Part shown: piece after piece, positions 1 through 10,578 of the stretch
How the letters are laid out: each line of letters starts with the position of its first letter
How positions within the stretch are numbered: the stretch's first letter is position 1
Assembly (NCBI GenBank): GCA_024640925.1
Contig: JAHEEB010000064.1
Span: 1-10,578 of the forward strand
Origin: Bacteroidota bacterium
GTDB taxonomy: Bacteria; Bacteroidota; Bacteroidia; Bacteroidales; UBA10428
Direction: 5' to 3'
Length of the DNA: 10,578 nt
Notes under the pieces: model-generated
Seen by the model: the letters and a program-made list of their open reading frames with translations, nothing else
Told to the model about the DNA's origin: nothing
Database searches by the model: none
Made by a program: the position numbers and the translations under genes

Positions 1-88
1 AGCGTGGCTATATCAAAGTCTAGTCTTCTACTGCCTCTTTTTTTGGCTCAACTGTGCCTTAAATCCTATATTGTTAGCCCCCGTAGTT
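1..88 (-). repeat. partial attC-like spacer after the HigBA cassette
   Basis: This stretch runs from the window edge to 2 bp before the higA stop codon. In plus-strand reading its right end, CCTATATTGTTAGCCC (65-80), resembles the outer ends of the other spacers (CCTATTTATTGGC and similar), and GTTAGCC is close to the GTTRRRY core of attC sites. A 14-bp imperfect palindrome, GGCTCAACTGTGCC, lies at 45-58. The distal half of the site is outside the window, so pairing between the two ends cannot be checked. No ORF is present. Confidence 0.5.
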
Positions 89-89
89 T

Positions 90-395
90 TTATATCTCTA
101 TTTGAATTTTAATCTTTCCGCCTAGTCCTTTTTCAACAATATCATAAAGGGTCTTTAAAGTCATATTGCTGGCATCATTTTCAATCCTGGAAATATAGCT
201 TCTCTTTTTTTCAACCTTTTGACCAAGTTGGTCTTGAGTCATCTTTTTCTGTTCTCTTGCTTCACGAAGCATTAATCCTATTTTAAATGATTTGAATTCC
301 CTATCAAGTTGGTCCCTCCGCTGAGTCCCTTTTTCTCCATATACTTGATCTTTTAAATCAGTCCATGTTGTTGTATTCCTCTTCTTCATAATCAT
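90..395 (-). CDS. higA: HigA-type XRE-family antitoxin
   Basis: A 101-residue helix-turn-helix protein. The XRE/Cro HTH spans about residues 38-85, with MTQDQLGQKV forming helices 1-2 and KRSYISRIEND the recognition helix region. It ends in LGGKIKIQIEI, typical of short HigA antitoxins. In this family the antitoxin binds the RelE-fold toxin encoded just upstream and represses its own promoter. The start overlaps the toxin stop codon as ATGA (392-395). A second ATG two codons in (position 389, giving MKKRNTTTW) fits the usual family N-terminus equally well. HTH residues and length look complete, so the antitoxin seems functional although its partner is broken. A perfect 16-bp palindrome over the promoter (712-727) is the likely operator. 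Confidence 0.88.
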   Translation of the reverse strand: MIMKKRNTTTWTDLKDQVYGEKGTQRRDQLDREFKSFKIGLMLREAREQKKMTQDQLGQKVEKKRSYISRIENDASNMTLKTLYDIVEKGLGGKIKIQIEI

Positions 396-686
396 TTATT
401 TTTGTCGTTAAAATACTCTTGCATTAATAAAATCGCTTTATCAATCTCTGATTTGGGAGTCTTTTGCGTCTTTTTCTGAAATCCATTTAATAGAATCACT
501 AACTGTCCTTGGTCGAAAAAACAAAATACCCGCCAAATATTAGATCCTAATGTAATCCGAGCTTCATAAAGCCCTTTTTGTCCTTCGATATGTTTTAGAT
601 ATTTTATCTTGTACTTTTTGAGGTTGTTCAAGTAAAAAATCCTTAAAATAATCTTTATAAGCAATAACAGTCCGAACACGCTCCAT
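392..686 (-). pseudogene. higB: HigB/RelE-fold toxin, frameshifted by an internal deletion
   Basis: The natural start is the ATG at 686, which opens MERVRTVIAYKDYFKDFLLE, the usual N-terminus of phage Gp49-like/HigB toxins. That frame reads 29 family-like residues to about position 600, then goes out of register and stops at TGA 564-566. The rest of the toxin (YLKHIEGQKGLYEARITLGS, then the FCFFDQG and LLNGFQKKTQKTP motifs) continues in another frame from about 601 to the stop at 392. From memory of family members about 110-115 residues long, some 16 residues between DKI and YLKHIEG are missing, so a deletion not divisible by three is the simplest explanation. A GTG at 679 opens the downstream frame but gives an unrelated N-terminus. 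The toxin is probably inactive. Its stop overlaps the higA start. Confidence 0.82.
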
Positions 687-706
687 TTAAATTAAATCAT
701 TCTGGA

Positions 707-740
707 CAAAGGTAACTTATAAGTTACAATTACGCAATAA
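707..740 (-). promoter_or_regulatory. Bacteroidota-type promoter of the higBA cassette
   Basis: Read on the minus strand, TACCTTTG (714 to 707) matches the Bacteroidota -7 consensus TAnnTTTG. A TTATTG (740 to 735) lies 20 nt upstream in the place of the -33 TTG element. The ATG at 686 follows 20 bp downstream of the -7 box. The -7 box overlaps the palindrome at 712-727, which suits autorepression by HigA. This cassette carries its own promoter, a known habit of toxin-antitoxin cassettes in integrons. Confidence 0.6.
712..727. promoter_or_regulatory. palindromic operator, likely HigA-binding
   Basis: GTAACTTATAAGTTAC is a perfect 16-bp palindrome that overlaps the -7 box upstream of higB. HTH antitoxins of this class bind as dimers to such palindromes. 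The link to HigA is inferred from position. Confidence 0.6.
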
Positions 741-762
741 TGTCTCTGTTTTTTTACTATGG

Positions 763-900
763 GTGTTTGCCCTTTATCCCTGAAGAGAAGTCCATTGCCG
801 CCAGGCTGGGTTTAGTTCAATCGGGAGTTCATGTTTACCTGCCGCTGAGCCCTTCGGGGTTGGGCTGTTAGCCCACATGGACTCCTATTTATTAGCAGCT
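763..900 (-). repeat. attC-like spacer, short form
   Basis: About 138 bp shared with the right-hand part of the two long identical spacers (1634-1764 and 5108-5238). Its arms GGAGTTCATGT (824-834) and ACATGGACTCC (875-885) pair with one wobble. They enclose a smaller GGGCT-GTT-AGCCC hairpin (862-874) and an AGCCC/GGGCT stem. The right edge, CCTATTTATTAGCAGCT, is the R''-like end and lies 8 bp beyond the stop of the gene at 909. No clear R' core is visible at the left edge (GTGTTTGCCC), so the site may be truncated there. It does not encode a protein. Confidence 0.6.
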
Positions 901-908
901 GTTGTTTT

Positions 909-1190
909 TTACTTTTTCAATTTATCAAGTTGTTCAAATATTTTATTCCCTAAATCCATTCCATCCAATCCAACAAAATCATCCCACCGACAAGTCGGAG
1001 CAAACCATATCCATAAATCGTTAATAACATTAAGATCATTTGATTTTAGTCTATTAATTCTATCACAAAGAGCAGCATGAAACTCTTCAGCTGTAATGAA
1101 TTCACCAGAATATCCTCCGGAAAACTCTGACAATAGTTTTTCAGCAGACTCCAAATCATTAATCAGTCTATTTATTTGGATATTATTCAT
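909..1190 (-). CDS. small acidic cassette protein, unknown function
   Basis: A 93-residue protein starting MNNIQINRLINDLESAEKLL. It has a helical first half and a distinctive aromatic C-terminal half, LWIWFAPTCRWDDFVGLDG followed by MDLGNKIFEQLDKL. I do not recognise a named family with confidence. Small acidic soluble proteins of this kind are common in integron cassettes, and some are immunity-like, but nothing here proves that. The ATG at 1190 is preferred over an in-frame GTG at 1202. It overlaps the end of the upstream gene by 8 bp and has AAAAGG about 11 nt upstream. The overlap implies translational coupling with 1183-1410. It is the last gene of its cassette, and an attC-like spacer follows. 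Confidence 0.75.
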   Translation of the reverse strand: MNNIQINRLINDLESAEKLLSEFSGGYSGEFITAEEFHAALCDRINRLKSNDLNVINDLWIWFAPTCRWDDFVGLDGMDLGNKIFEQLDKLKK

Positions 1191-1410
1191 AAATTGAAGC
1201 ACCTTTTAGAATATCAGCGAATACTTTCCAATCTGGTTTATCTGCGTCAATTTTCTGCCCAGTATTATCATAATATCCTTGGATATCTTCAGTATATCTT
1301 ATCAATGCTTCTAGGTAATCATCGATATTTTTATTCTCCCAATTATCAGGATGATTTATAAATTCTGTCCTAAGTTCATTTAAGAAATCAATAAATTGTA
1401 ATCTATCCAT
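1183..1410 (-). CDS. small acidic protein, resembles DUF7660-type proteins
   Basis: A 75-residue acidic protein. Its recognisable pattern is NPD/HPDNWENKNIDDYLEAL near residues 20-36, then YTEDIQGYYDNTGQ (39-52) and a C-terminal PDWKVFADILKGASIYE. From memory this layout matches the DUF7660 family of short bacterial proteins, whose function is unknown; a profile search would be needed to confirm. The ATG at 1410 sits about 25 bp after the R'-like core of the preceding spacer (AGCTGCCAAT, 1435-1444), too close for a separate promoter, so it is probably read through from upstream. Its stop overlaps the start of the 909-1190 gene. Confidence 0.75.
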   Translation of the reverse strand: MDRLQFIDFLNELRTEFINHPDNWENKNIDDYLEALIRYTEDIQGYYDNTGQKIDADKPDWKVFADILKGASIYE

Positions 1411-1421
1411 TTGTCAGTGTC

Positions 1422-1769
1422 TTTTTTTTACAATAGCTGCCAATTGAGTAGGAAAAGATACGAAATATTTTGCATCTCCGCCCTCTCACACCACAGTAAG
1501 TAGCGGAATACGACGGTTCGTTAGGCATGGCTAAATCTGACGAATAGTTCACTCGCTTTTTTTTAATAGCAAAACTTGAAAAAACATGTTTTATCTACCT
1601 CTTTGTTTTTTAATTTACCTCTCCGGTTTTAACGTGTTTGCCCTTTATCCCTGTTGAGAAGTCCATAGCCGCCAGGCCGGGCTTTCGTTCAACCGGGAGT
1701 TCATGTTTAGCTGCGCTGAGCCCTTCGGGGTTGGGCTGTTAGCCCACATGAACTCCTATTTATTGGCGG
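1422..1769 (-). repeat. long attC-like spacer A1 (343 bp identical to A2)
   Basis: Positions 1422-1764 are identical by eye to 4896-5238. The attC-like ends are GCCAATTGAGTAGG (1439-1452) and CCTATTTATTGGC (1755-1767), which are imperfectly complementary. Inside, from left to right, are a motif around 1453-1526 containing the hairpin GATACGAAAT/ATTTTGCATC and CCGCCCTCTCACACCAC, a GTTAGGC core at 1520-1526, an AT-rich stretch including the palindrome AAAACATGTTTT, and from 1634 the same module as 763-894 with perfect 11-bp arms GGAGTTCATGT (1696-1706) and ACATGAACTCC (1746-1756). The identity begins 17 bp outside the left core, in the leader of the 1183-1410 gene. No credible ORF lies within. 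Confidence 0.75.
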
Positions 1770-1778
1770 CTGGCATTT

Positions 1779-2267
1779 TTATATTTGTTTATTCATAAAG
1801 CACACTCGAAATGGTAAATGCTCAAAATCTTTTGTCCTGGTTTCTTTAAATCCTTGTGAGCAATACCAGTTTTTGAGTTTTGTATTTGAATCAATTAATG
1901 CGATGGATATACTCTTTCCGCCTAATCCTTTTATTTTAGATGTTGCGAAATCCATTAATTTAACTCCAAATCCATGATTTCTAAATTCTGGAACAACCGA
2001 TACTTTCTCAATGTAAAATGTATTAATTTCTTTTGCAGATTTTTCAATCGCAATGCAACCTATCAATTTATTATCAAGTGACATTGCATACAAATCAATC
2101 CCTTTGTTTAATTGAGTCCTTAAAGTTGATTCGTTTATAAAAGCGTTATTGGTTGGATTATTATCCTTTGTAAATCCAAAATCCTTTGCCACTGTATCAT
2201 GAGATACATTAAGCACATGTACTATTGCTGATAAATCGTTACTTGAATTGACTAAAGTAAAGTCCAT
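1779..2267 (-). CDS. GNAT-family N-acetyltransferase
   Basis: A 162-residue protein of normal GNAT length. Acetyl-CoA-binding motif A is EKVSVVPEFRNHGFGVKLMD (about residues 87-106), where R-N-H-G-F-G is the Q/R-x-x-G-x-G/A pyrophosphate-binding loop. Motif B follows as NTKLKNWYCSQGFKETRT (128-145), including the usual Tyr and G-F pair. Residues 60-75 form the beta strand pair DLYAMSLDNKLIGCIAI. The substrate cannot be read from sequence. Members of this group modify small amines, antibiotics or protein N-termini. The ATG at 2267 lies 5 bp after the tautomerase stop, so the two genes form one two-gene cassette. The spacer core follows 10 bp after its own stop. Confidence 0.92.
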   Translation of the reverse strand: MDFTLVNSSNDLSAIVHVLNVSHDTVAKDFGFTKDNNPTNNAFINESTLRTQLNKGIDLYAMSLDNKLIGCIAIEKSAKEINTFYIEKVSVVPEFRNHGFGVKLMDFATSKIKGLGGKSISIALIDSNTKLKNWYCSQGFKETRTKDFEHLPFRVCFMNKQI

Positions 2268-2272
2268 TGAAA

Positions 2273-2680
2273 TTATTTATTTTGTTCCTTTTTATTACGA
2301 ATCGTCATTGAAATACCATCAAATCCCCAACTATCAGGGTTAAGCTCATTTATTATAAAATAGTTTGTTATATCATTCGAACCAAGCGTGTGCTTTACCA
2401 ATTCTTTACCTGCTCTAATTACCTCCGACATTTGTTCAGCGGAGCTTGTTCCTTTTGAAATTCTTATCTCAATGCAACAAACCTTATCATGCTTAGATTT
2501 ATCAATTGGTTTACCTCCTATAATCCAATTTGATTGGTCAATTTCATCAATTGTTATCACTGTCAAATCAGGATTACGACCCATAATTTTTACAATTATA
2601 TCCATTAATCCAGTTATCAATGAGTCTTTTTGCTCCTGATTAACCTGTTGCTTAACAAACTTTACATTTACATATGGCAT
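2273..2680 (-). CDS. tandem 4-oxalocrotonate tautomerase-like protein
   Basis: A 135-residue protein built from two 4-OT-like repeats. The first (residues 2-60) begins MPYVNVKF, which would expose Pro-1, the catalytic base of the tautomerase superfamily once Met is removed, and ends VITIDEIDQSNWIIGG. The second (about 67-127) is CCIEIRISKGTSSAEQM through FIINELNPDSWGFDG. It has the same strand-helix-strand layout and a matching (D/E)-E/L-x-x-x-x-W-x-x-x-G turn, but no N-terminal proline. So only the first half can supply Pro-1, as in known fused 4-OT-type enzymes. The substrate is unknown. It is the first gene of the cassette, and its ATG lies about 70 bp from the left edge of the upstream spacer. 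The initiator ATG is fixed by the Met-Pro start. Confidence 0.88.
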   Translation of the reverse strand: MPYVNVKFVKQQVNQEQKDSLITGLMDIIVKIMGRNPDLTVITIDEIDQSNWIIGGKPIDKSKHDKVCCIEIRISKGTSSAEQMSEVIRAGKELVKHTLGSNDITNYFIINELNPDSWGFDGISMTIRNKKEQNK

Positions 2681-2739
2681 AATTCTATTTTTTAATTAAT
2701 ATTTCCCAATCAAGTAACTGCTGAAAGGGTCGCAGCTGT

Positions 2740-3031
2740 GCTTGCCGGTAATCGAGTAGGGAAAGATACGAAATATTTCGCATCGCCGCCCTCTCACACC
2801 AAAATGCGTAAGGCGGTTACTAAAATAAAGAAATTTTTGTTTAATCTAAGCTTTTTTCCTTAACCACAAAGATTAACACAAAGGACAAAGTTTGCTCTGA
2901 ACAATGTGCTACCAGATCTTTTAAATTTATTCCTTGTTCCTTTTAAAATTCGTTCAATACCATTGTAACCGAATTTAAAACATTAACCCTTTCTTGTTTG
3001 TTTTTTAACCAACCCCAACCCCTCAGTAAGG
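2740..3031 (-). repeat. long spacer B1, left part
   Basis: The outer core-like end is GCTTGCCGGTAAT (2740-2752), followed by CGAGTAGGGAAAGATACG, the hairpin GATACGAAAT/ATTTCGCATC and CCGCCCTCTCACACC. Then comes a module shared with 3568-3810 and 6769-6991. Its 104-bp core (2920-3023) is identical by eye in all three copies. The module ends in the left arm of the G/C palindrome (3014-3031), where the DUF559 element interrupts it. No ORF. Confidence 0.65.
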
Positions 3032-3520
3032 CCTTAGTAAGGGGCAATAACAAGGCGGTGGAACTTAATACCAACTAGCTGGTTTTAAACTGTTCTTTTA
3101 TTTTTTTAAGTACCTATGTCAGATTATTGAGTACTTCCTTATTTTCAAAACGAAGTACTTTAATATTCATCATTTCCAGATTATTGTCTCTTTCCAGATC
3201 ATTTGTTTTACCTTCAGTAGTATAATGATGTTTTCCATCAAGTTATATAATCAATCTTTCTGACATACAATAGAAATCTGCTATATAATTTCCAATACTA
3301 TGTTGTCGTCTGAATTTGCGTTTGCATAGTTTTTTATCTTTTAAAACCTTCCACAGCACCAACTCGGCTTCAGTCATATTCTTTCGAAGATGCTCCCGGT
3401 TGTCTTTCAGATAACTCAGATTATTTAATTGGGTTGGCATAGGTTATAATATAAAACCAAATCTTTCTTTTATGTAAAAACTCTATGTATGAACAAATCT
3501 GTTATTGCCCCTTACTAAGG
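3032..3520. mobile_element. DUF559-carrying element with 20-bp terminal inverted repeats
   Basis: The left end, CCTTAGTAAGGGGCAATAAC (3032-3051), and the right end, 3501-3520, are perfect reverse complements. The 489-bp unit sits at the centre of the spacer's 38-bp palindrome, which is uninterrupted at 6954-6991 and 3773-3810. Its only gene is a DUF559 endonuclease pseudogene (3075-3440). The right-hand 64 bp (3457-3520) recur at 7948-8010 without the rest, which supports a unit that has moved or decayed independently. An alternative reading takes GGCAATAAC as the terminus and the flanking CCTTASTAAGG as an 11-bp target duplication. Confidence 0.6.
3075..3440 (-). pseudogene. DUF559 (Vsr-like fold) endonuclease, nonsense-mutated
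   Basis: The reading frame begins MPTQLNNLSYLKDNREHLRK and carries the family signature: NMTEAELVLWKVL, then RKFRRQHSIGNYIADFYC with the metal-binding Asp, which would normally be followed by IELDGxxHH. A TAA at 3243-3245 stands where the Glu of IELDG is expected. Reading on gives LDGKHHYTTEGKTNDLERDN and KVLRFENKEVLNNL, which completes the domain. A second stop (TAG, 3114-3116) and a terminal TAG (3075-3077) follow in the same frame, giving 121 codons in all, the normal length. Thus no frameshift is seen, only two in-frame stops, one removing a catalytic residue. DUF559 proteins share the PD-(D/E)XK/very-short-patch-repair fold. Their role in mobility is inferred here from the flanking inverted repeats. 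Confidence 0.85.
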
Positions 3521-3900
3521 GGTTGGGGTTTTCAATAAAAAATTTCCATGTTTACCTGCCTGAAGAAGGTTACTAAAATAATGAAACTTTTGTTTAATCT
3601 AAGCTTTTTCTTTAACCACAAAGCACACAAAGGTTTACACAAAGAACACAAAGTTTGCTTTGAACAAGTTGCTAGCGATTTCTTTAAATTTATTCCTTGT
3701 TCCTTTTAAAATTCGTTCAATACCATTGTAACCGAATTTAAAACATTAACCCTTTCTTGTTTGTTTTTTAACCAACCCCAACCCCTTAGTAAGGCCTTAC
3801 TAAGGGGTTGGAGTTTTCAATTCAAATTTATTTATGTCTACCTGCCGCTGAGCCCATCGGGTTTGGGCTGTTAGCCCACATGAACTCCTATTTATTGGCG
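3521..3900 (-). repeat. long spacer B1 end fused to B2
   Basis: The piece 3521-3560 (GGTTGGGGTTTTCAAT to TTTACCTGCC) continues the palindrome arm and tail of B1, then breaks off. At 3568 a second copy of the middle module begins, including the identical 104-bp core (3683-3786), followed by the 38-bp palindrome CCCCAACCCCTTAGTAAGG plus its near-complement (3773-3810), and the outer hairpin module GCTGAGCCCATCGGGTTTGGGCTG with end CCTATTTATTGGC (3887-3899). The whole spacer 2740-3900 is therefore two B-type spacers merged, the second lacking its left motif. The R''-like end lies 7 bp from the stop of the lipoprotein gene. Confidence 0.65.
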
Positions 3901-3906
3901 TGTCGT

Positions 3907-4887
3907 TTATTTTTTATTAATCAGAAAATTTAATTCTTGCTCTGTCATTTGTGATAGATTTATCCGTATTTTATCATTTTCTTGAATTTTGAAATCCTTA
4001 TAAAATCCATATATCTTATTATCGATTAAACTAACAGCAACAACTCTAACATTGGCATTAACTGGGATATCAGAAAATCCATTGTTAATTATATTTGCTT
4101 TTGATTTAATGAATATTGAAGACGTTATGCTATTAATATCCTTAAAAATAAGGTATACCTTTGCTATTAAGGTATCTTGTTTTGTATTGATACTAAAATC
4201 TAGTTTTGTTTTATCTTTTATCTCATAAAATCTATCACAATTTATCCAATCTAAAGATGTAATTTTTACAGGCACATAATAAACTACGTTATTAACAGCA
4301 GAATCATACTCAATTCTATCAAGTAAGCTGCCAGGAACTACTGCTGGAGAAGCAACTGTAACAGGCGTTTCAAATTTTAAATTTGTATTTAACCATTGGA
4401 TATTACTTAAGCTATCCTTTTGCCCATAAAATAAGCTCATCTCTTCATCAGAAAATCTTGGTAAATAAACAGTCAAAGAATCATTATGCTTTAATTTTAA
4501 CTGTTTTCCATTCGATAGCATTGAAATTTTATAAGCTCCGCCTGAGACTATAAGCTTTCCTTGGGAAATAGTCTGGATATTCGATTGAATAAAATCAATC
4601 TGATTCAAACACTCAATAACTTCAATAATAATTGAATCTGTCAAAGGAGAACCATCTTCAGTTTCTAATTGATTGGCGTCAAAAAGAAATTTTAATCCAT
4701 TTTTTGCTATTACAGTCTGCTTATCTTTCGTAGAAAATTTAAAAACTTGTTTATTCTTATCAACTTTGGTAATTAAGTCCGTCAATTTATTAATCTGAAT
4801 AGCATAATCATTAATCTGAATCTTTGTTGATTTCTGACAGCTAATTAAAAGTGAAGCGAAAATTAAAATAATCGTAATTCTTTTCAT
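3907..4887 (-). CDS. putative lipoprotein, paralogue of the next upstream gene
   Basis: A 326-residue protein with a lipoprotein signal peptide: MKR, a hydrophobic stretch, then lipobox LLISC with Cys17, so it is probably anchored in a membrane facing the periplasm or outside. The ATG at 4887 is chosen over an upstream in-frame start because it begins the signal peptide directly. An N-terminal beta-rich domain (about 50-170) contains GLKFLFDANQLETEDGSPL and GGAYKISMLSNGKQLKL. A C-terminal domain holds DWINCDRFYEI (213-223) and LIFKDINSI (246-254). Both domains align with the 476-residue lipoprotein at 5253-6683, which has an extra middle region missing here. Function is unknown. It is a single-gene cassette. 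Its leader matches that of the 1183-1410 gene because the identical spacer repeat extends into it. Confidence 0.85.
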   Translation of the reverse strand: MKRITIILIFASLLISCQKSTKIQINDYAIQINKLTDLITKVDKNKQVFKFSTKDKQTVIAKNGLKFLFDANQLETEDGSPLTDSIIIEVIECLNQIDFIQSNIQTISQGKLIVSGGAYKISMLSNGKQLKLKHNDSLTVYLPRFSDEEMSLFYGQKDSLSNIQWLNTNLKFETPVTVASPAVVPGSLLDRIEYDSAVNNVVYYVPVKITSLDWINCDRFYEIKDKTKLDFSINTKQDTLIAKVYLIFKDINSITSSIFIKSKANIINNGFSDIPVNANVRVVAVSLIDNKIYGFYKDFKIQENDKIRINLSQMTEQELNFLINKK

Positions 4888-4895
4888 GGTTCGTA

Positions 4896-5238
4896 TTTTT
4901 TTTACAATAGCTGCCAATTGAGTAGGAAAAGATACGAAATATTTTGCATCTCCGCCCTCTCACACCACAGTAAGTAGCGGAATACGACGGTTCGTTAGGC
5001 ATGGCTAAATCTGACGAATAGTTCACTCGCTTTTTTTTAATAGCAAAACTTGAAAAAACATGTTTTATCTACCTCTTTGTTTTTTAATTTACCTCTCCGG
5101 TTTTAACGTGTTTGCCCTTTATCCCTGTTGAGAAGTCCATAGCCGCCAGGCCGGGCTTTCGTTCAACCGGGAGTTCATGTTTAGCTGCGCTGAGCCCTTC
5201 GGGGTTGGGCTGTTAGCCCACATGAACTCCTATTTATT
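4896..5238 (-). repeat. long attC-like spacer A2, identical to A1
   Basis: A 343-bp perfect direct repeat of 1422-1764, by reading both copies side by side. The contents are the same: core end GCCAATTGAGTAGG (4913-4926), the group II intron-like motif, a GTTAGGC core (4994-5000), and outer arms at 5170-5180 and 5220-5230. The right edge then diverges into TTAGGCACA (5238 onward), the cassette-specific R'' of the next gene. A spurious 61-codon ORF covers the left motif and is not a gene. Confidence 0.75.
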
Positions 5239-5252
5239 AGGCACAGTAATTA

Positions 5253-6683
5253 TTATTTTTCCCCATTCAATTCTTTTTCCAAATCGTCAAGGGAAAACTC
5301 GTTAAAAGCTGTCAACTCGAAACCGTCTTTGTCAATGGCCGTCTCTGCTACTCCCATTGTTGGCTTTCCATTTGCATAACTAATGCCTATCACTTTTATT
5401 AGTCTTCCAAGTGGTACGTTTTTGAAGACAAGTTTTCCGTCCATAAATGTGCTGGTCATAATACTATTTATGTCCTTAAAGACGATTTGAACTTTAGTAT
5501 TTTTTGGATTCTGAGTTGTTACAATGAAGTCAGTTTTATCTTCATCATCTATTTCCCAAAACCTATCACAATTTATCCAGCCCATTTTGGTTGCAGAAAA
5601 CATGTAATAATCTAGAGCCGTTTTGTCCAAATTCTGAATAGCCTTGTCCTTGTATTCAGAAAACTGCTCTCTGAACTTTGTTTTAAACCTTTCCCAGTTT
5701 AATGTCCGACTGCCCATTATGCCCAAGGAATAGTCCCAATTGTGTTTTATTTCTTCTTTTTTATAAGAAGCTATATCGAAAGGTGGAATAGCTTTGAAAT
5801 AGTCAAGTGCAAGAGTTATTGCTCTTTTATTGTAATTTGAATACTCATTATTAATCGGTCTGAAATTATACATTTTTCCGTTCTTATCAATGTTAAGGTC
5901 AAATTCTACTCTCCAATTATTATCCAGAAACTCATGAGCAATGTTTTGGTCAACAGTCTCAGGGTCGTTAATGTAATCCAATACAGTCCTACTTTGACCA
6001 ACTAAAAACAAGTCATAAAAAGTTGCGGTTTGAAGAGAAGTACTGAAACCATAGTCGTAAAGGTCATCGGTCATTCCAATTGGGTAGTTGAGATTTAGTG
6101 CAACATCTCCCTCACTTGGTGTCGTGTCTGCTTGTGCTTGTTGCATTGCTTCTGCCTCAAACATTTTGTAATCAGATACCCAGGTTGAAGAAGTATCATT
6201 TATCGCAAAGTCATAAAACAAGTCCATTTCTTCTGCTTGGATGCCTTTTGGGAACCCTATTACAAAGGCTTTTCCGTCTTTGATAGATAGCTGTTTGCCG
6301 TCAGCGGTGGCATTGAAGTAAATCATTCCTCCTGTCTCTAAGATTCGGTGTCCTGATGTTGTGTTCATGTTCTCCGCAATCATGTCAGTTAGCGAGTAAC
6401 ACTCCTTAAGTTCTATGCTTACTTTTCCTGTCGGTGTTGTGCCGTCTGCGAATTGGAAAACGTCTGCGGGAATGTATACCGCCGTTCCTTTGTCGCCATT
6501 CAACATTGTTTCCTCTGTCGGATTGATTTCAAAAGTCTTTGGCATAGGTGCAAGATTTATTAGCACGTCCTTTAATGAGTTGACGGGAATGTATTTCTTG
6601 CCCTCTTTTGTGTCATTCGAACAGCCTGCAAATAGAAGTGTCAGAATTGCTAGTGTCGAAAGTGTTTTGTCAAGTATCATCAT
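5253..6683 (-). CDS. large putative lipoprotein with WINCDRF domain
   Basis: A 476-residue protein with signal peptide and lipobox LFAGC (Cys21). The start is the ATG at 6683. A TTG 24 bp further upstream falls inside the attC-like core and is rejected. The N-terminal beta domain (about 50-165) shows AVYIPADVFQFADGTTPTG, a conserved ELKECYSLTDMI and LETGGMIYFNATADGKQL. A middle region (about 180-365) is unique to this protein; its part RVEFDLNIDKNGKMYNF with a following ALDYFKAIPPF helix looks like a TonB C-terminal-type fold, a tentative reading. The C-terminal domain has GWINCDRFWEI (368-378) and IVFKDINSIMTSTF (400-413), shared with the 3907-4887 lipoprotein. It appears more GC-rich than its neighbours, perhaps a different source. 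Single-gene cassette; the ATG lies 19 bp from the core TGTGCCCAAT. Function unknown. Confidence 0.88.
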   Translation of the reverse strand: MMILDKTLSTLAILTLLFAGCSNDTKEGKKYIPVNSLKDVLINLAPMPKTFEINPTEETMLNGDKGTAVYIPADVFQFADGTTPTGKVSIELKECYSLTDMIAENMNTTSGHRILETGGMIYFNATADGKQLSIKDGKAFVIGFPKGIQAEEMDLFYDFAINDTSSTWVSDYKMFEAEAMQQAQADTTPSEGDVALNLNYPIGMTDDLYDYGFSTSLQTATFYDLFLVGQSRTVLDYINDPETVDQNIAHEFLDNNWRVEFDLNIDKNGKMYNFRPINNEYSNYNKRAITLALDYFKAIPPFDIASYKKEEIKHNWDYSLGIMGSRTLNWERFKTKFREQFSEYKDKAIQNLDKTALDYYMFSATKMGWINCDRFWEIDDEDKTDFIVTTQNPKNTKVQIVFKDINSIMTSTFMDGKLVFKNVPLGRLIKVIGISYANGKPTMGVAETAIDKDGFELTAFNEFSLDDLEKELNGEK

Positions 6684-6698
6684 TGTCTGTTTTTTTAT

Positions 6699-7078
6699 TG
6701 TGCCCAATTGAGTAGGGAAAGATATAAAATATTTCGCATCTCCGCCCTCACACCAAAATGTGTAAGGCGGTTACTAAAATAAAGAAAGTTTTGTTTAATC
6801 CAAGCATTTTTCCTTAACCATAACGAAGGAAGTAAAGTTCACTAAGGTTCTACCTGATCTTTTAAATTTATTCCTTGTTCCTTTTAAAATTCGTTCAATA
6901 CCATTGTAACCGAATTTAAAACATTAACCCTTTCTTGTTTGTTTTTTAACCAACCCCAACCCCTTAGTAAGGCCTTAGTAAGGGGTTGGGGTTTTCAATT
7001 CAAATTTATTTATATCTACCTGCCGGTGAGCCCTTCGGGGTTGGCTACTAGCCCACATGAACTCCTATTTATTGACGC
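6699..7078 (-). repeat. long attC-like spacer B3, uninterrupted
   Basis: The best intact B-type spacer. The left core is TGTGCCCAATTGAGTAGGG (6699-6717). Then follow the hairpin motif around 6718-6745, the middle module from 6769 with the 104-bp identical core (6861-6964), the 38-bp palindrome (6954-6991, one mismatched pair), TTTTCAATTCAAATTTATTT, and the outer module GAGCCCTTCGGGGTTGGC with end CCTATTTATTGACGCC (7064-7079). The right end lies a few bases from the stop of the membrane protein gene at 7083. It carries no ORF. At about 380 bp it is far longer than ordinary attC sites. Confidence 0.7.
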
Positions 7079-7082
7079 CAGT

Positions 7083-7736
7083 TTATATCATCCTCACAAA
7101 TCCTCCTTTTAAATTTGAAGTAGATATTAATCGATCAATCTCATCAATATTATCAATTTTCCTAAATATATACTTGTCGCCTTTTTTAAACTTAATCCTA
7201 TTTGTATTTTGAGATGAAATTATCCCAAAATCCTCATCTTCATTTATTTGTTTTATAAGAAACCATTGTTTTTCTTCTATAATTATTTCCTTTAATATTT
7301 TATATTTTACAGGCATTATTCGAGCTTGCATTTCTCCCCATTGAATTGGTGATAGTTTTATTTCTTTATCTATAATTGAAAACTTGTACAAGAAATAAAA
7401 TAATCCCGTATAGAAAATCCCTAAAAAATTGATACCAAGCTGTAGTCTAAATCCACTGTGCAATGTAAAAGCCATATAAACACTCGTATTAAAAACTTGC
7501 CAAGCCTCCCAAAATGGTGCTACAATAATTATTTGCGAATATGCCCAGAATTGCAAGAGGGGAAGTGCTATTTTCTTTTTTATAAAAAATAGAGCTATCC
7601 CAGTTAGTCCAATTACTGAATTTAATAAACTTGAAACATTTATTCCAAAAAAAATATTATGGAAATTTATAATGCTAAGAGCTAGCACCAAAATCAAATA
7701 AATTAAGGCTCTCTTATTTATATCTTTTAATTTCAT
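7083..7736 (-). CDS. hypothetical four-helix membrane protein
   Basis: A 217-residue protein with four predicted membrane helices, at about residues 10-30, 34-53, 57-77 and 98-119, followed by a roughly 95-residue charged C-terminal domain that is probably cytoplasmic (SPIQWGEMQARI through GGFVRMI). I recognise no family. The third helix region contains APFWEAWQVFNTSVY, and the tail contains EEKQWFLIKQINEDEDFG, neither diagnostic. The ATG at 7736 (MKLKDINKR) is preferred over a TTG at 7793, which would add 19 residues not resembling a signal and which lies on a spacer-core-like sequence. Single-gene cassette. Its leader to the presumed core at 7785-7794 is about 50 bp, with a possible weak promoter box further up at 7841-7848. 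Confidence 0.78.
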   Translation of the reverse strand: MKLKDINKRALIYLILVLALSIINFHNIFFGINVSSLLNSVIGLTGIALFFIKKKIALPLLQFWAYSQIIIVAPFWEAWQVFNTSVYMAFTLHSGFRLQLGINFLGIFYTGLFYFLYKFSIIDKEIKLSPIQWGEMQARIMPVKYKILKEIIIEEKQWFLIKQINEDEDFGIISSQNTNRIKFKKGDKYIFRKIDNIDEIDRLISTSNLKGGFVRMI

Positions 7737-7784
7737 GTTTTTTTCAATTTGTATCGTTGTAATCAGTAAATAAAACTGCAGAGT

Positions 7785-8119
7785 TTTTGGCAATTAAGAA
7801 TGCAGAGAAAATGGCAACAATAATGCAGAACTTTTCATTTCAAAAATAAATAAAAATTATTCATTAGTAAATATAGTTTTCCGGTTTTTCATCCTGTAGC
7901 TTTTTTCCGTCAAGGTTAATAACCTCGCAACGATAAAGTAATATTCTCCAAATCTTCTTTTATGTAAAAACTCTATGTATGCACAAATCTGTTATTGCCC
8001 CTTACTAAGGCCTTACTAAGGGGTTGGGGTTTTAAATTCAAATTTATTTATGTCTACCTGCCGCTGAGCCCTTCGGGGTTGGGCTGTTAGCCCACATGAA
8101 CTCCTATTTATTGGGCATA
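7785..8119 (-). repeat. degenerate long attC-like spacer with element remnant
   Basis: This 335-bp gene-free stretch separates two cassettes. Its right part is a standard outer module (8054-8112) with end CCTATTTATTGGGCATA. Before it lies one palindrome arm, GGGGTTGGGGTTTT (8020-8033), preceded by two tandem CCTTACTAAGG 11-mers (8000-8010 and 8011-8021 region) and the DUF559-element remnant. The left 160 bp (7790-7947) share nothing recognisable with other spacers. They hold a small palindrome, AGGTTAATAACCT (7913-7925), and on the minus strand TATTTTTG (7848 to 7841), which fits the -7 consensus but has no good -33 partner. The expected left motif is absent, and only TTTTGGCAAT (7785-7794) hints at a core. 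Confidence 0.55.
7948..8010. mobile_element. solo right end of the DUF559 element
   Basis: These 63 bp match 3457-3520, the right end of the DUF559 element including its 20-bp terminal repeat, with one base deleted and one substitution (GCAC versus GAAC). No DUF559 coding sequence remains to the left. The remnant abuts an intact right half of the host palindrome, which argues that the element inserts at the palindrome's centre. Confidence 0.65.
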
Positions 8120-8124
8120 GTTTT

Positions 8125-8463
8125 TTATTCAATTAATCCGTATTCTTTTAATGCATCTTGCCAAATATGCTCCTTGTTGATTTCGATTGTACTTGTGATC
8201 AACTTATTCATGATTTCCTGGTCTAAGTTGTGTTTTTTATAAGTATCAATGAAAATTTGAGATTCTTCTTTAGTCATTGGGATAATTTTCTCATTAAGGT
8301 CACAGCAACCATAGCCATCGAATGATATTCTTTTTAGAAAAATGCATCTGTCTTTCGAAAGGTTAAAATCAATGAAAACGCAGCCTTCCAAACATCCTAA
8401 ATAGTAATCTGCAATCCTTGTACTTGGCATACTTGTCTTAAAAAATTCAAAGTCTTTGTCCAT
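8125..8463 (-). CDS. small cassette protein, unknown function
   Basis: A 112-residue soluble protein with no signal peptide or membrane segment. It has four cysteines in two pairs, GCLEGC (residues 23-28) and GYGCCDL (51-57), plus Cys40. This could suggest metal binding, but no known zinc-finger spacing is evident. The C-terminus is helical (DQEIMNKLITSTIEINKEHI). I do not recognise the family. The ATG at 8463 lies 7 bp after the stop of the membrane-anchored coiled-coil gene, so the two are probably co-transcribed and may work together. It is the second gene of its cassette, and the R''-like end TATGCCCAAT (minus strand, 8119 to 8110) follows 6 bp after the stop. Confidence 0.75.
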   Translation of the reverse strand: MDKDFEFFKTSMPSTRIADYYLGCLEGCVFIDFNLSKDRCIFLKRISFDGYGCCDLNEKIIPMTKEESQIFIDTYKKHNLDQEIMNKLITSTIEINKEHIWQDALKEYGLIE

Positions 8464-8470
8464 TATTGTG

Positions 8471-9208
8471 TTATTCGTTTGTTAAATAACCTTTTACATT
8501 TTCTGTGAAAGCATTATCAGTAGATAATATTTTAGAATATTCAGAATTTCTGTTATCGTAAAAGTCCTTTTTTAACAATTCATATTGAGAAATAATTGTT
8601 TTTTCTTTTTCTGCCAATTCATTTGCCGCTTCCTGATTCTTTTCGAAATCCTTTATTAATTCCAAAAATCTATACGTTAAAGAATCATGAGATTCTAGAT
8701 TCTGTTGTAGCTTTAATAATTTTAAATCCATCCAGTTTTTAAATTCTAATATCTTAATAATTAATTCATTTGACAATTTAATAATTTCGCCATCTTTAAC
8801 TAAAAGTTTAACCATTGATTGAGCAACATTTGTTATCCTATAATGCTTATCTATAAGATGTCTTGTCTCAATCAAATTAGTAATGTTTCCACGATTAAAA
8901 GCACCATAATTAATTTCAATTAAGGAATACAGCCAATCATTATACTTCCTGTAAAAATCAATAATAGCATTTCTTTCTTCGGTACGATGGCTTTGCTGCA
9001 ATGTCAATAAATGTTGAACTTTTGCCTTAATATCATCATTTTCTCGTTGGAAATCTGATTTTATTTTTTCTACTTTATCAGTAATCTCTTCGATATCTTC
9101 TTTTATCGCAAGTTGTTTACCTTTTTCAGAAAAGTAACTTTTTAAAAATGCAAGATATAATCCAATACACAGGATTAAAATCTGCAATATTATCGATAAT
9201 GTTACCAT
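8471..9208 (-). CDS. membrane-anchored coiled-coil protein
   Basis: A 245-residue protein. An N-terminal membrane helix (about residues 3-23) is followed by SYFSEKGKQLAIKEDIEEIT, a motif I know from many uncharacterised bacterial membrane proteins with the same helix-then-coiled-coil layout. Residues about 30-75 are a strong coiled coil (EITDKVEKIKSDFQREND). The remainder is almost wholly alpha-helical and charged, with a predicted cytoplasmic location. Function is unknown. The ATG at 9208 lies only 20 bp from the GTTGGGC core of the attC-like site, so no promoter fits in the leader. It is the first gene of a two-gene cassette with 8125-8463. Confidence 0.82.
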   Translation of the reverse strand: MVTLSIILQILILCIGLYLAFLKSYFSEKGKQLAIKEDIEEITDKVEKIKSDFQRENDDIKAKVQHLLTLQQSHRTEERNAIIDFYRKYNDWLYSLIEINYGAFNRGNITNLIETRHLIDKHYRITNVAQSMVKLLVKDGEIIKLSNELIIKILEFKNWMDLKLLKLQQNLESHDSLTYRFLELIKDFEKNQEAANELAEKEKTIISQYELLKKDFYDNRNSEYSKILSTDNAFTENVKGYLTNE

Positions 9209-9227
9209 GACGTTTTTTTTTTAATAT

Positions 9228-9358
9228 GCCCAACGTTGATAGTATGGTGTCGTGCGGGAGTACGAGGCGATTTCTTATCAAGCTACACTGGACTTTTTAC
9301 GAGCCACAAACATTTGTAACCCACTGAACCCCGCATGCACTATACCATTTATTGTGCC
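9228..9358 (-). repeat. attC-like recombination site of ordinary length
   Basis: A 131-bp site. On the minus strand it starts GGCACAAT (9358 to 9351), an RYYYAAC-like R'', and ends GTTGGGC (9234 to 9228), a perfect GTTRRRY R'. Inner arms pair imperfectly: ATGGTATAGTGCATGCGGGG (minus strand, from 9348) against ATGGTGTCGTGCGGGAG (plus strand, 9243-9259), with an extrahelical-type bulge as in known attC sites. It begins 7 bp after the stop of the GldM-like gene and ends 19 bp before the next ATG. No integrase gene is in view to confirm activity. Confidence 0.75.
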
Positions 9359-9365
9359 ACGTATT

Positions 9366-10007
9366 TTAATCAACTATTAGAGATATATCATTCAGTTTCA
9401 TTGTTTTCTCATTATCTTCTATACTCTGAACAAAAATATCAAGGAAGTATATTTTATCTCCAGATATAGTCAGTTTAAAAGCATCTTTTATTTCATCCCC
9501 AAACTTGAAGGAATCAAATTCTCTTGTGAATATTAGTGAATCACCTCTCAAAATAATTAACCGGTAACTTGAGATATTATATCTCAATGAGATATCTTGA
9601 TTTATTAATTGAGCATCAAGTCCAATTTGTGATATTAATGATTTCTTTGAAATCAAACTACCATTTGCCCCTGGAAGATAGACTTCAGAATATTTAATCA
9701 AAGGATGAACTTCTAAAAGTTTTGACCCAATAAATATTGTATCAGCACTATTTATAGAATATACATTAAGTGAAGTATTACCTGGTTTCTTAGGTTGAAT
9801 AATAAATCCCGATTCTGTCTTACGAATAGTCCCATTCGAATTAGTCACATAAAGAGATTCAAAAGAGTACCCATTTGTGCATATTTCAATGTAGTTTTCT
9901 AGTGATTGCAGCAATCTCTGTTTTGGTGTAGATATTACAATTTCTTGTCCAAATACAGATATTAGTATAAGATTAATTAAAATAGTTGAAATTACTCTTT
10001 TATTCAT
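9366..10007 (-). CDS. secreted protein resembling GldM C-terminal domains
   Basis: A 213-residue protein with a Sec signal peptide (about residues 1-20, ending SVFGQE) and no lipobox, so it is probably periplasmic or exported. Two beta domains follow. Residues about 22-102 show an NGTI (58-61) and PKKPGNTSLNVYS (72-84) pattern. Residues about 105-213 show GANGSLISKKSLISQIGL, YRLIILRGDS, GDKIYFLDIFVQS (183-195) and a terminal KLNDISLIV. From memory this order matches the last two domains of GldM, the periplasmic shaft subunit of the type IX secretion and gliding motor, but the GldM membrane helix and first two domains are absent. It is therefore a stand-alone GldM-tail homologue, whose role in T9SS is only a possibility. 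Single-gene cassette; ATG at 10007. Confidence 0.78.
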   Translation of the reverse strand: MNKRVISTILINLILISVFGQEIVISTPKQRLLQSLENYIEICTNGYSFESLYVTNSNGTIRKTESGFIIQPKKPGNTSLNVYSINSADTIFIGSKLLEVHPLIKYSEVYLPGANGSLISKKSLISQIGLDAQLINQDISLRYNISSYRLIILRGDSLIFTREFDSFKFGDEIKDAFKLTISGDKIYFLDIFVQSIEDNEKTMKLNDISLIVD

Positions 10008-10070
10008 GTAGCATAAGCTTTTAGTTTCATAATTATATAAGCTGCAATTAAGAAGTTTTTGTCAGAATAT

Positions 10071-10110
10071 GTCGCACAACTACTTATAGGTGCATAAAAA
10101 CTGCACCTAT
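10071..10110. repeat. possible attC-like core plus perfect hairpin
   Basis: GTCGCACAAC (10071-10080) is 8/10 identical to the expected partner of the GldM-like cassette's R'' (GTGGCACAAT), so it may mark that cassette's upstream boundary. Next to it, ATAGGTGCA (10086-10094) and TGCACCTAT (10102-10110) form a perfect 9-bp stem with a 7-nt loop, followed by TTT on the plus strand. The stem could be the L'/L'' arms of a short, decayed attC or a weak plus-strand terminator. No matching R'' end is seen to its right. Confidence 0.4.
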
Positions 10111-10343
10111 TTTCCATATTTCGTAATATAGGTTCACTCCTTTCTTCTCCATCTGTTTTCCATTTTAAGTAAAAGAATCTTCCCCAATATACAACCTCCC
10201 CCGTTATCTTCCAATACCTTCCTGTATATAATAATCAATAAGTTTTCAACTGGTAAGTTATTAACAGACAGGGAGCAGGAATAAAAAAACGCTGTAAACA
10301 TTAATCTTCGTTTAAACAAACTACTCTACCCTTCCCGAGGATC
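10111..10343. other. gene-free stretch before the tandem repeat
   Basis: I see no supportable gene here. A 61-codon minus-strand frame exists but has no family features, no signal and unusual composition. The segment is no longer recognisably part of the cassette spacers. Thus the array may end near 10110, or the next cassette has lost its gene. Confidence 0.4.
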
Positions 10344-10578
10344 GTTGCAGATTCGATAAAGATCATTGCAGATTCGATAAAAGTTACTGCAGATTTGAAA
10401 AAAGATGTTGCAGATTCAATAAAAGTTGTTGCAGATTCGATAAAGATCGTTGCAGATTCGATAAAAGTTACTGCAGATTCGATAAAAGTTACTGCAGATT
10501 TGAAAAAAGATGTTGCAGATTCAATAAAAGTTACTGCAGATTCAATAAAGATCATTGCAGATTCGATAAAAGTTATTG
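10344..10578. repeat. 21-bp tandem repeat array, continues past the window
   Basis: Eleven complete units of exactly 21 bp (10344-10574) plus 4 bp of a twelfth. The consensus is GTTGCAGATTCGATAAAAGT(T). Variation is confined to base changes, with no length changes. Units 3 and 8 are the same variant (ACTGCAGATTTGAAAAAAGA plus T), as are units 4 and 9, suggesting a five-unit higher-order period. The plus strand reads a heptad (V/I/T)ADSIK(V/I), open from 10305 without an obvious ATG. The minus strand reads FIESAVT repeats from an internal ATG at 10555. Neither frame can be proved coding from this window. Confidence 0.85.

Follow-up and report, generated by a model that had tools for sequence, protein, structure and literature searches.

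A Bacteroidota contig with cassette-specific paired boundaries as a probable part of a chromosomal integron cassette system

Introduction

A contig of 10,578 nucleotides (JAHEEB010000064.1 of assembly GCA_024640925.1; this whole stretch is referred to as the window) from a Bacteroidota bacterium of the order Bacteroidales carries one- and two-gene units that are separated by structured spacers. This raises the question of whether these units are integron cassettes and, if so, which recombinase could have moved them. A first-pass annotation, made from the sequence alone, had proposed a chromosomal integron-like cassette array with no integrase in view, as the boundary before the first gene of a unit complements the boundary after its last stop codon. 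The boundary pairs quoted there are present in the sequence, as re-reading of the arms showed, and the main open reading frames (ORFs) lie, as had been claimed, on one strand, the minus strand. According to our analysis the window very probably belongs to a chromosomal system of integron cassettes in a species that its relatives place in the Bacteroidota. This system would operate by the steps given in the Discussion. The original proposal is supported in its core but has to be modified in two respects, as most of the long spacers are attC sites enlarged by other elements and as the array is one of several.

Methods

The window corresponds to contig C329 of genome G000 (handles with G, C and L denote genomes, contigs and loci), the assembly of which comprises 5.67 Mb in 1131 contigs and is 81.9% complete. 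A search of this genome with one window spacer yielded at least 53 matches on at least 21 contigs, with 40 of 81 candidates scored. Together with three contigs obtained by searches with head elements (see below), the 21 contigs found by spacer matches form the working set of 24 array contigs. For pairing, each start motif was joined to whichever end motif came first after it on that strand, up to 3.5 kb away, which gave 19 rule-based pairs. A second set of 15 pairs was picked with the outcome known and is hence descriptive, the rule-based test being the fair one. It retains 11 of the 19 pairs, while two which skip a classical-type site (C329 498 and C909 2548) were swapped for four pairs flanking these two sites and six with scores of 1 to 3 of 9 were omitted (C793 2337, C793 6399, C140 6492, C226 259, C271 2147 and C313 1162).

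Results

Start and end arms pair within cassettes

For the 19 rule-based pairs, the agreement of a start arm with the end arm of its own cassette was on average 5.16 of 9 letters, compared to 3.13 of 9 for other pairings, and none of 100,000 permutations was as good. For ten of the 19 starts the own end was, with ties counted, the best match. Within the window, 47 of 60 letters agree when the six cassettes with both arms are paired with themselves, compared to a mean of 26.5 across all 720 possible pairings, of which only two, including the true one, are this good. Cassette-specific pairing of R″ and R′, as demanded of an integron, is thus found here. The complementarity that had been claimed for each unit exceeds chance in the window as well as genome-wide, but does not extend to every unit, as the two arms of unit 3907-4887 are mismatched and no start arm could be recognised for units 7083-7736 and 90-679. 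Likewise, no type A start (see below) was recognised in the spacers 680-890, 2753-3893 and 7737-8109, which hold other repeats.

In the 15 chosen pairs the arms are 14-15 nt long. Own pairs agree more often than other pairings at positions 5-10 and 12-14 and slightly more often at position 15, and agreement is at background level from position 16 onward. At ten arm positions (4-10 and 12-14) 128 of 150 letters agree, compared to 63 by permutation (none of 200,000 permutations as good). Position 11 is a fixed mismatch with A at the start and C at the end in 12 of the 15 pairs; as this combination is also seen in 81% of mismatched pairs, both ends carry it as a constant feature. The mismatch reads C·A on the coding strand and G·T on the bottom strand, and among all arm mismatches of these pairs 17 turn into G·T on the bottom strand, five on the top strand and 13 on neither. 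The bottom strand of attC is the one used by integrases, and heptanucleotides are given as the R boxes (PMC2727003). We infer that the fixed G·T pair at position 11 aids strand choice.

Insertion had been placed at G/TT. A cut before TT is retained, yet the preceding base may be A or G, which gives the crossover motif [A/G]^TT. Similarly, the interval of 19-30 bp proposed between a spacer and the following unit becomes, when measured from the crossover to the start codon, 25-34 nt in four of the six window cassettes and 72-73 nt in the other two.

The start and end arms of unit 3907-4887 agree only in ATTGGC. Its upstream spacer and start arm (the copy at 4893-5238) are 100% identical over 346 nt to those of unit 909-1410, and therefore the start of unit 3907-4887 was probably overwritten. 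The 100% identical spacers and start arms at 1419-1718 and 4893-5192 are a sign of recent copying within the array.

Head elements and two types of cassette ends

A motif search of the 24 contigs with mismatches allowed yielded 29 ends of one type (type A) and five of another (type B), about 34 in all, as well as 24 type A starts, on 19 contigs; a few of these may be false. The ordinary genes differ between array contigs, with an AcrB-type pump on C793 and a family 31 glycosidase on C314 as examples, which points to several arrays. Before the first cassette of the window stands a conserved stretch, the head, which was found in 13 places of the genome by BLAST and in 13 by motif, amounting to 15 different places. 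In ten of the 13 heads found by motif a promoter-like TTG-N20-TA[T/C]ATTG is located 131-143 nt before the end of the head hairpin; it is absent in the heads of C140, C271 (cut at the contig end) and C633. The exact head pattern had no match in the genome contig collection. Upstream of the window head, positions 10319-10570 hold 21-bp tandem repeats, and a similar repeat was seen by eye upstream of the C234 head.

No intI gene was found in the assembly. By their position the heads resemble an attI. With a chance little short of even, they are instead the 3′ half of a promoter-bearing attC type, namely type B, which would leave the arrays without a special start. Upstream of the head on C226 and C875 there is a type B R″-L″ arm, in keeping with half of a promoter-bearing attC rather than an attI, and the type B sequence TATAGG is able to pair with CCTATA of the head. 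In addition, a type A half runs into the head on C522. The head on C909, however, stands between the array and a divergent LytTR regulator gene, with no cassette in between. Promoters are known in attI2 as well as in cassettes (PMC8876359). More tentatively, the heads might serve as platforms for capture that spread independently of the integrase gene. Such a multi-head integron would consist of dispersed arrays, each begun by a copy of one promoter-plus-recombination-site element, and would be served in trans by a single unseen IntI of Bacteroidota type, acting on attC sites with 14-15-nt arms and a fixed bottom-strand G·T pair. We regard this extended model as possible but rather unlikely.

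Long spacers as probable enlarged attC sites

Type A sites have the layout R″-AAT-AAATAGGAGTTCATG...CATGAACTCC-CGGTTGAAC...CTTTCCCTACTC[A/G]-ATT-R′. GTTGAAC, which follows the first type A hairpin, was considered as the true R′ and dropped, as the cassette-specific arm follows CTACTC[A/G]. Among the 15 type A sites with a start, three (all on C793) are 166-200 nt and twelve are 332-478 nt long, including 24 nt of flank; one of the twelve, the 455-nt site of C875, probably has a false start. Most long sites contain about 170 extra nucleotides, opening with a stretch that on C909 adjoins an IS91-family transposase, and other long sites are enlarged by palindromic repeats. The three sites of C793 lack the IS91-like part. 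It appears likely from these comparisons that the longer spacers represent a second attC type, three examples of which are 166-200 nt long and twelve of which have been extended to 330-480 nt by other repeats or by a truncated IS91-like part.

These features also suit the idea that the spacers are dispersed repeats, IS91-derived or palindromic, which inserted between genes without any cassette system, all the more as a recognised start lies near only 15 of the 29 type A ends. Repeat insertion does not, however, produce arms that vary between cassettes and yet pair within each of them, and the C793 sites keep their arms even without the IS91-like part. Unit boundaries do not coincide with the ends of an IS91-family element or of a derived miniature inverted-repeat transposable element; the cassette arms lie outside the IS91-like part. 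We therefore consider this explanation very unlikely.

A unit close to CCGACTAAAAGGAGCTCAGCGCAGCTAA occurs in tandem in some type A sites of this genome and also interrupts the 3′ end of the intI gene of genome G029 (L062 9270-9310). A similar motif is present in repeats of G059, G012 and G039, and the unit may represent a small repeat that is mobile within the order. A short motif shared by the window's genome and these three genomes was rejected as an attC candidate since it sits in other repeats. Pieces of a DUF559 gene with a surrounding palindromic repeat recur on array contigs as well (window 3243-3440 and C875).

Sites with a classical layout

The site at 2846-2985 on C909 is predicted to form both R and L stems in the manner of a textbook attC (z -4.7 and -4.6; none of 200 shuffles as good). 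Window site 9228-9360 is laid out in the same way, with R arms that pair with their own cassette. A scan by R-plus-L score gave many chance-like matches; it re-found the C909 site, with 9228-9360 outside the best 14 for the window. In a second scan, combining R and L with the start of the cassette itself, the latter site was not among the best 45. An Rfam scan of the window at gathering thresholds gave no match.

Integrases in the genome and its relatives

A search with profile TIGR02249 revealed no IntI above the cut-off in this 81.9% complete assembly, and the IntI protein of genome G006 matched only other tyrosine recombinases therein. The absence of an integrase noted earlier thus extends to this assembly, but not to the relatives of the genome. 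G006, which belongs to the same genus, encodes a full-length IntI (422 bits, cut-off 265). It is the only one of 23 genomes of the family, including our own, and of eight other genomes of the genus to do so; in the order, five of 393 sampled genomes contain IntI. In a tree of 20 rows, the sequences of G006, G029 and G222 form one clade (support 100/100) with those of L129 and L145, two loci from named Bacteroidetes metagenome-assembled genomes, while the IntI of G289 groups with Pseudomonadota. L131 was too short for this tree, which contains neither G350 nor G207 and used 14 of 76 non-Bacteroidota loci. The intI genes look broken in G029, L131 and L145 and intact in G006, L129 and G222.

The regions before intI in G006, G029, L145, L129 and G222 share only matches of 31-34 nt with the array contigs, and an alignment of four of them showed no clear attI. 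Upstream of three related intI genes TTCTACTGCC was observed (L061 near 75-84, L062 near 10970 and L145 near 4710); in G006 and G029 it opens a conserved block with different DNA beyond. TTCTACTGCC may mark attI or the edge of an array.

That another tyrosine recombinase moves the cassettes, for instance the one beside the IS91-like transposase on C909/C444 (two contigs overlapping by 22 bases), is even less probable than repeat insertion, for although it adjoins an array and its C-terminal piece is the best match of the genome to the G006 IntI (44% identity, residues 251-318), its visible part contains, by eye, no integron patch, the XerA and XerD models score above IntI and most sites have no such gene nearby.

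Features and cargo of the window

The features of the window are listed in Table 1.

Table 1. Positions of the head, arms, cassettes and attC sites in the window.
Feature	Positions	Strand	Basis
Head element, conserved, preceding the first cassette, with hairpin and first start arm at its end	10076-10251	-	BLAST to C909 head, 78% identity
Promoter-like TTG-N20-TATATTG in head	10185-10214	-	Motif, letters re-read
Start arm of cassette 1, GTTGTGCGACATATT	10066-10080	-	Pairs with 9351-9365
Cassette 1 gene, 213 aa, weak GldM-like match below cut-off	9366-10007	-	
End arm of cassette 1	9351-9365	-	
Site with classical attC layout, R″ GGCACAAT, R′ GTTGGGC	9228-9360	-	Layout and stem
Cassette 2, two genes (8471-9208 and 8125-8463); start arm 9220-9234, end arm 8110-8124	8125-9208	-	
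Cassette 3 gene, 217 aa; end arm 7071-7085, no start arm found	7083-7736	-	
Type A attC enlarged by palindromic repeat	6708-7071	-	
Cassette 4 gene, 476 aa; start arm 6694-6708, end arm 5236-5250	5253-6683	-	
Long type A attC with IS91-like part	4918-5236	-	
Cassette 5 gene, related to cassette 4; non-matching start arm 4904-4918, end arm 3894-3908	3907-4887	-	
Tautomerase and GNAT cassette; start arm 2738-2752, end arm 1762-1776	1779-2680	-	
Long type A attC with IS91-like part	1444-1762	-	
Two-gene cassette, one DUF7660 protein; start arm 1430-1444, end arm 891-905	909-1410	-	
Toxin-antitoxin-like pair, Gp49 family and HTH_3	90-679	-	
Type B attC beginning after the toxin-antitoxin pair, cut by contig end	1-87	-	

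The cargo of the window comprises a Gp49/HTH_3 pair, a DUF7660 protein, a GNAT acetyltransferase, a tautomerase and part of a DUF559 protein, along with two related proteins without Pfam match and the weak GldM match. UPF0175/DUF3368, DUF6364/PIN and DUF433/DUF5615 pairs are found in other arrays. A UPF0175-like/PIN-like gene pair was, by eye, common to two arrays (L069 3473-4154 and L090 221-836).

Cassettes and sites in other genomes

Gene order conserved in close relatives without gain or loss of cassettes had been named beforehand as an observation that would speak against an array. No evidence of such an order was obtained: heads and type A spacers gave nothing beyond short motif matches in 59 other relatives, and the protein of 5253-6683, the sole cassette protein tested, had only partial matches with at most 41% identity in 15 of them. 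In metagenome sets, relatives of this protein are up to 86% identical, and named genera such as Kordia and Olleya contain relatives with 52-56% identity.

When up to two candidates per genome were scored across 393 genomes of the order, at least six other genomes had partial matches to a short type A site. Five of six type A matches outside the window's genome cover the R″ side and one the R′ side. Judging from these matches, further families of the order appear to have the type A site. The first type A hairpin shows a compensatory exchange, from G-C to C-G at the fourth pair, in three of twelve distinct arm pairs (G086, G216 and G409, all from other genera). For a gene in G173, by eye similar to carboxymuconolactone decarboxylases, start and end agree in 13 of 15 letters; 1% of 300 shuffled controls were as good, a value uncorrected for the eight sites tested. 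At the other six loci beyond the genome, arm agreement was not above chance. Two type A patterns searched against the viral contig collection, and type A searched against plasmids, gave no match.

Discussion

By the structure of its cassettes the window appears to be an integron cassette array and should work like one. Several observations nevertheless weigh against this. No IntI with its extra domain, as demanded of a complete integron, was found in the own assembly, which is 81.9% complete, and no array was recognised beside the intI gene of G006, the start of which is 635 nt from the contig end. Start motifs are missing within 700 nt of 14 of the 29 type A ends, and the six rule-based pairs that reach only 1-3 of 9 include one plausible one-gene cassette (C793). 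An attC fold with R and L stems is predicted for the C909 site, but the folding energy of window site 9228-9360 is ordinary and no better than that of shuffles (z 0.38 and 0.03; 122 and 101 of 200 shuffles as good). The fold predicted for type A is branched (z -4.0 for one short site), which leaves its L box uncertain. Finally, some ORFs on array contigs point the other way.

As IntI was tested for and not found in the assembly, we do not call the system a complete integron. It is best described, as far as its sites indicate, as a putative large set of arrays lacking an integrase (CALIN, a term for attC clusters without integrase; PMC9024848) with variant attC sites and inferred recombination. 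An IntI that was lost, remained unassembled or is encoded elsewhere would have recognised the folded bottom strand of the sites and cut before TT in [A/G]TTRRRY, thereby inserting or excising cassettes. The promoter of the head would transcribe the first cassettes, while other cassettes, for example toxin-antitoxin pairs, would use promoters of their own.

The known range of working integrons would be widened by a genome of this kind, with dozens of cassette-like units, a site type recurring in several families of the order and its own IntI clade. Sites of 330-480 nt may escape tools with a length limit, whereas the paired arms offer a simple rule to find more such arrays. The repeated promoter-bearing heads can furthermore be used to test whether capture sites multiply apart from the integrase.

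Like sedentary chromosomal integrons (Vibrio, Xanthomonas) and CALIN, the system described here has cassettes in one orientation, attC-like sites which are alike within the genome and toxin-antitoxin cargo. It differs from them by 14-15-nt paired arms with a fixed bottom-strand G·T pair, by many heads and by the lack of a detected integrase. Its attC length of 330-480 nt contrasts with the 57-141 bp given in PMC5371416. Bacteroidota are among the phyla listed with integrons in reviews (PMC8618304, PMC9668308), and an IntI clade exists in the order studied here. PMC9024848 names one complete Bacteroidetes integron among complete RefSeq genomes, that of Salinibacter ruber M1, in contrast to which the genome examined here holds a large set of arrays and no detected integrase. 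Nothing of this form from Bacteroidota came up in the open papers searched. Group IIC introns and IS1111-attC elements are known to enter attC sites. The type A sites resemble these cases in that a mobile element lies inside attC, and differ from them in that the IS91-like part is carried in many sites.

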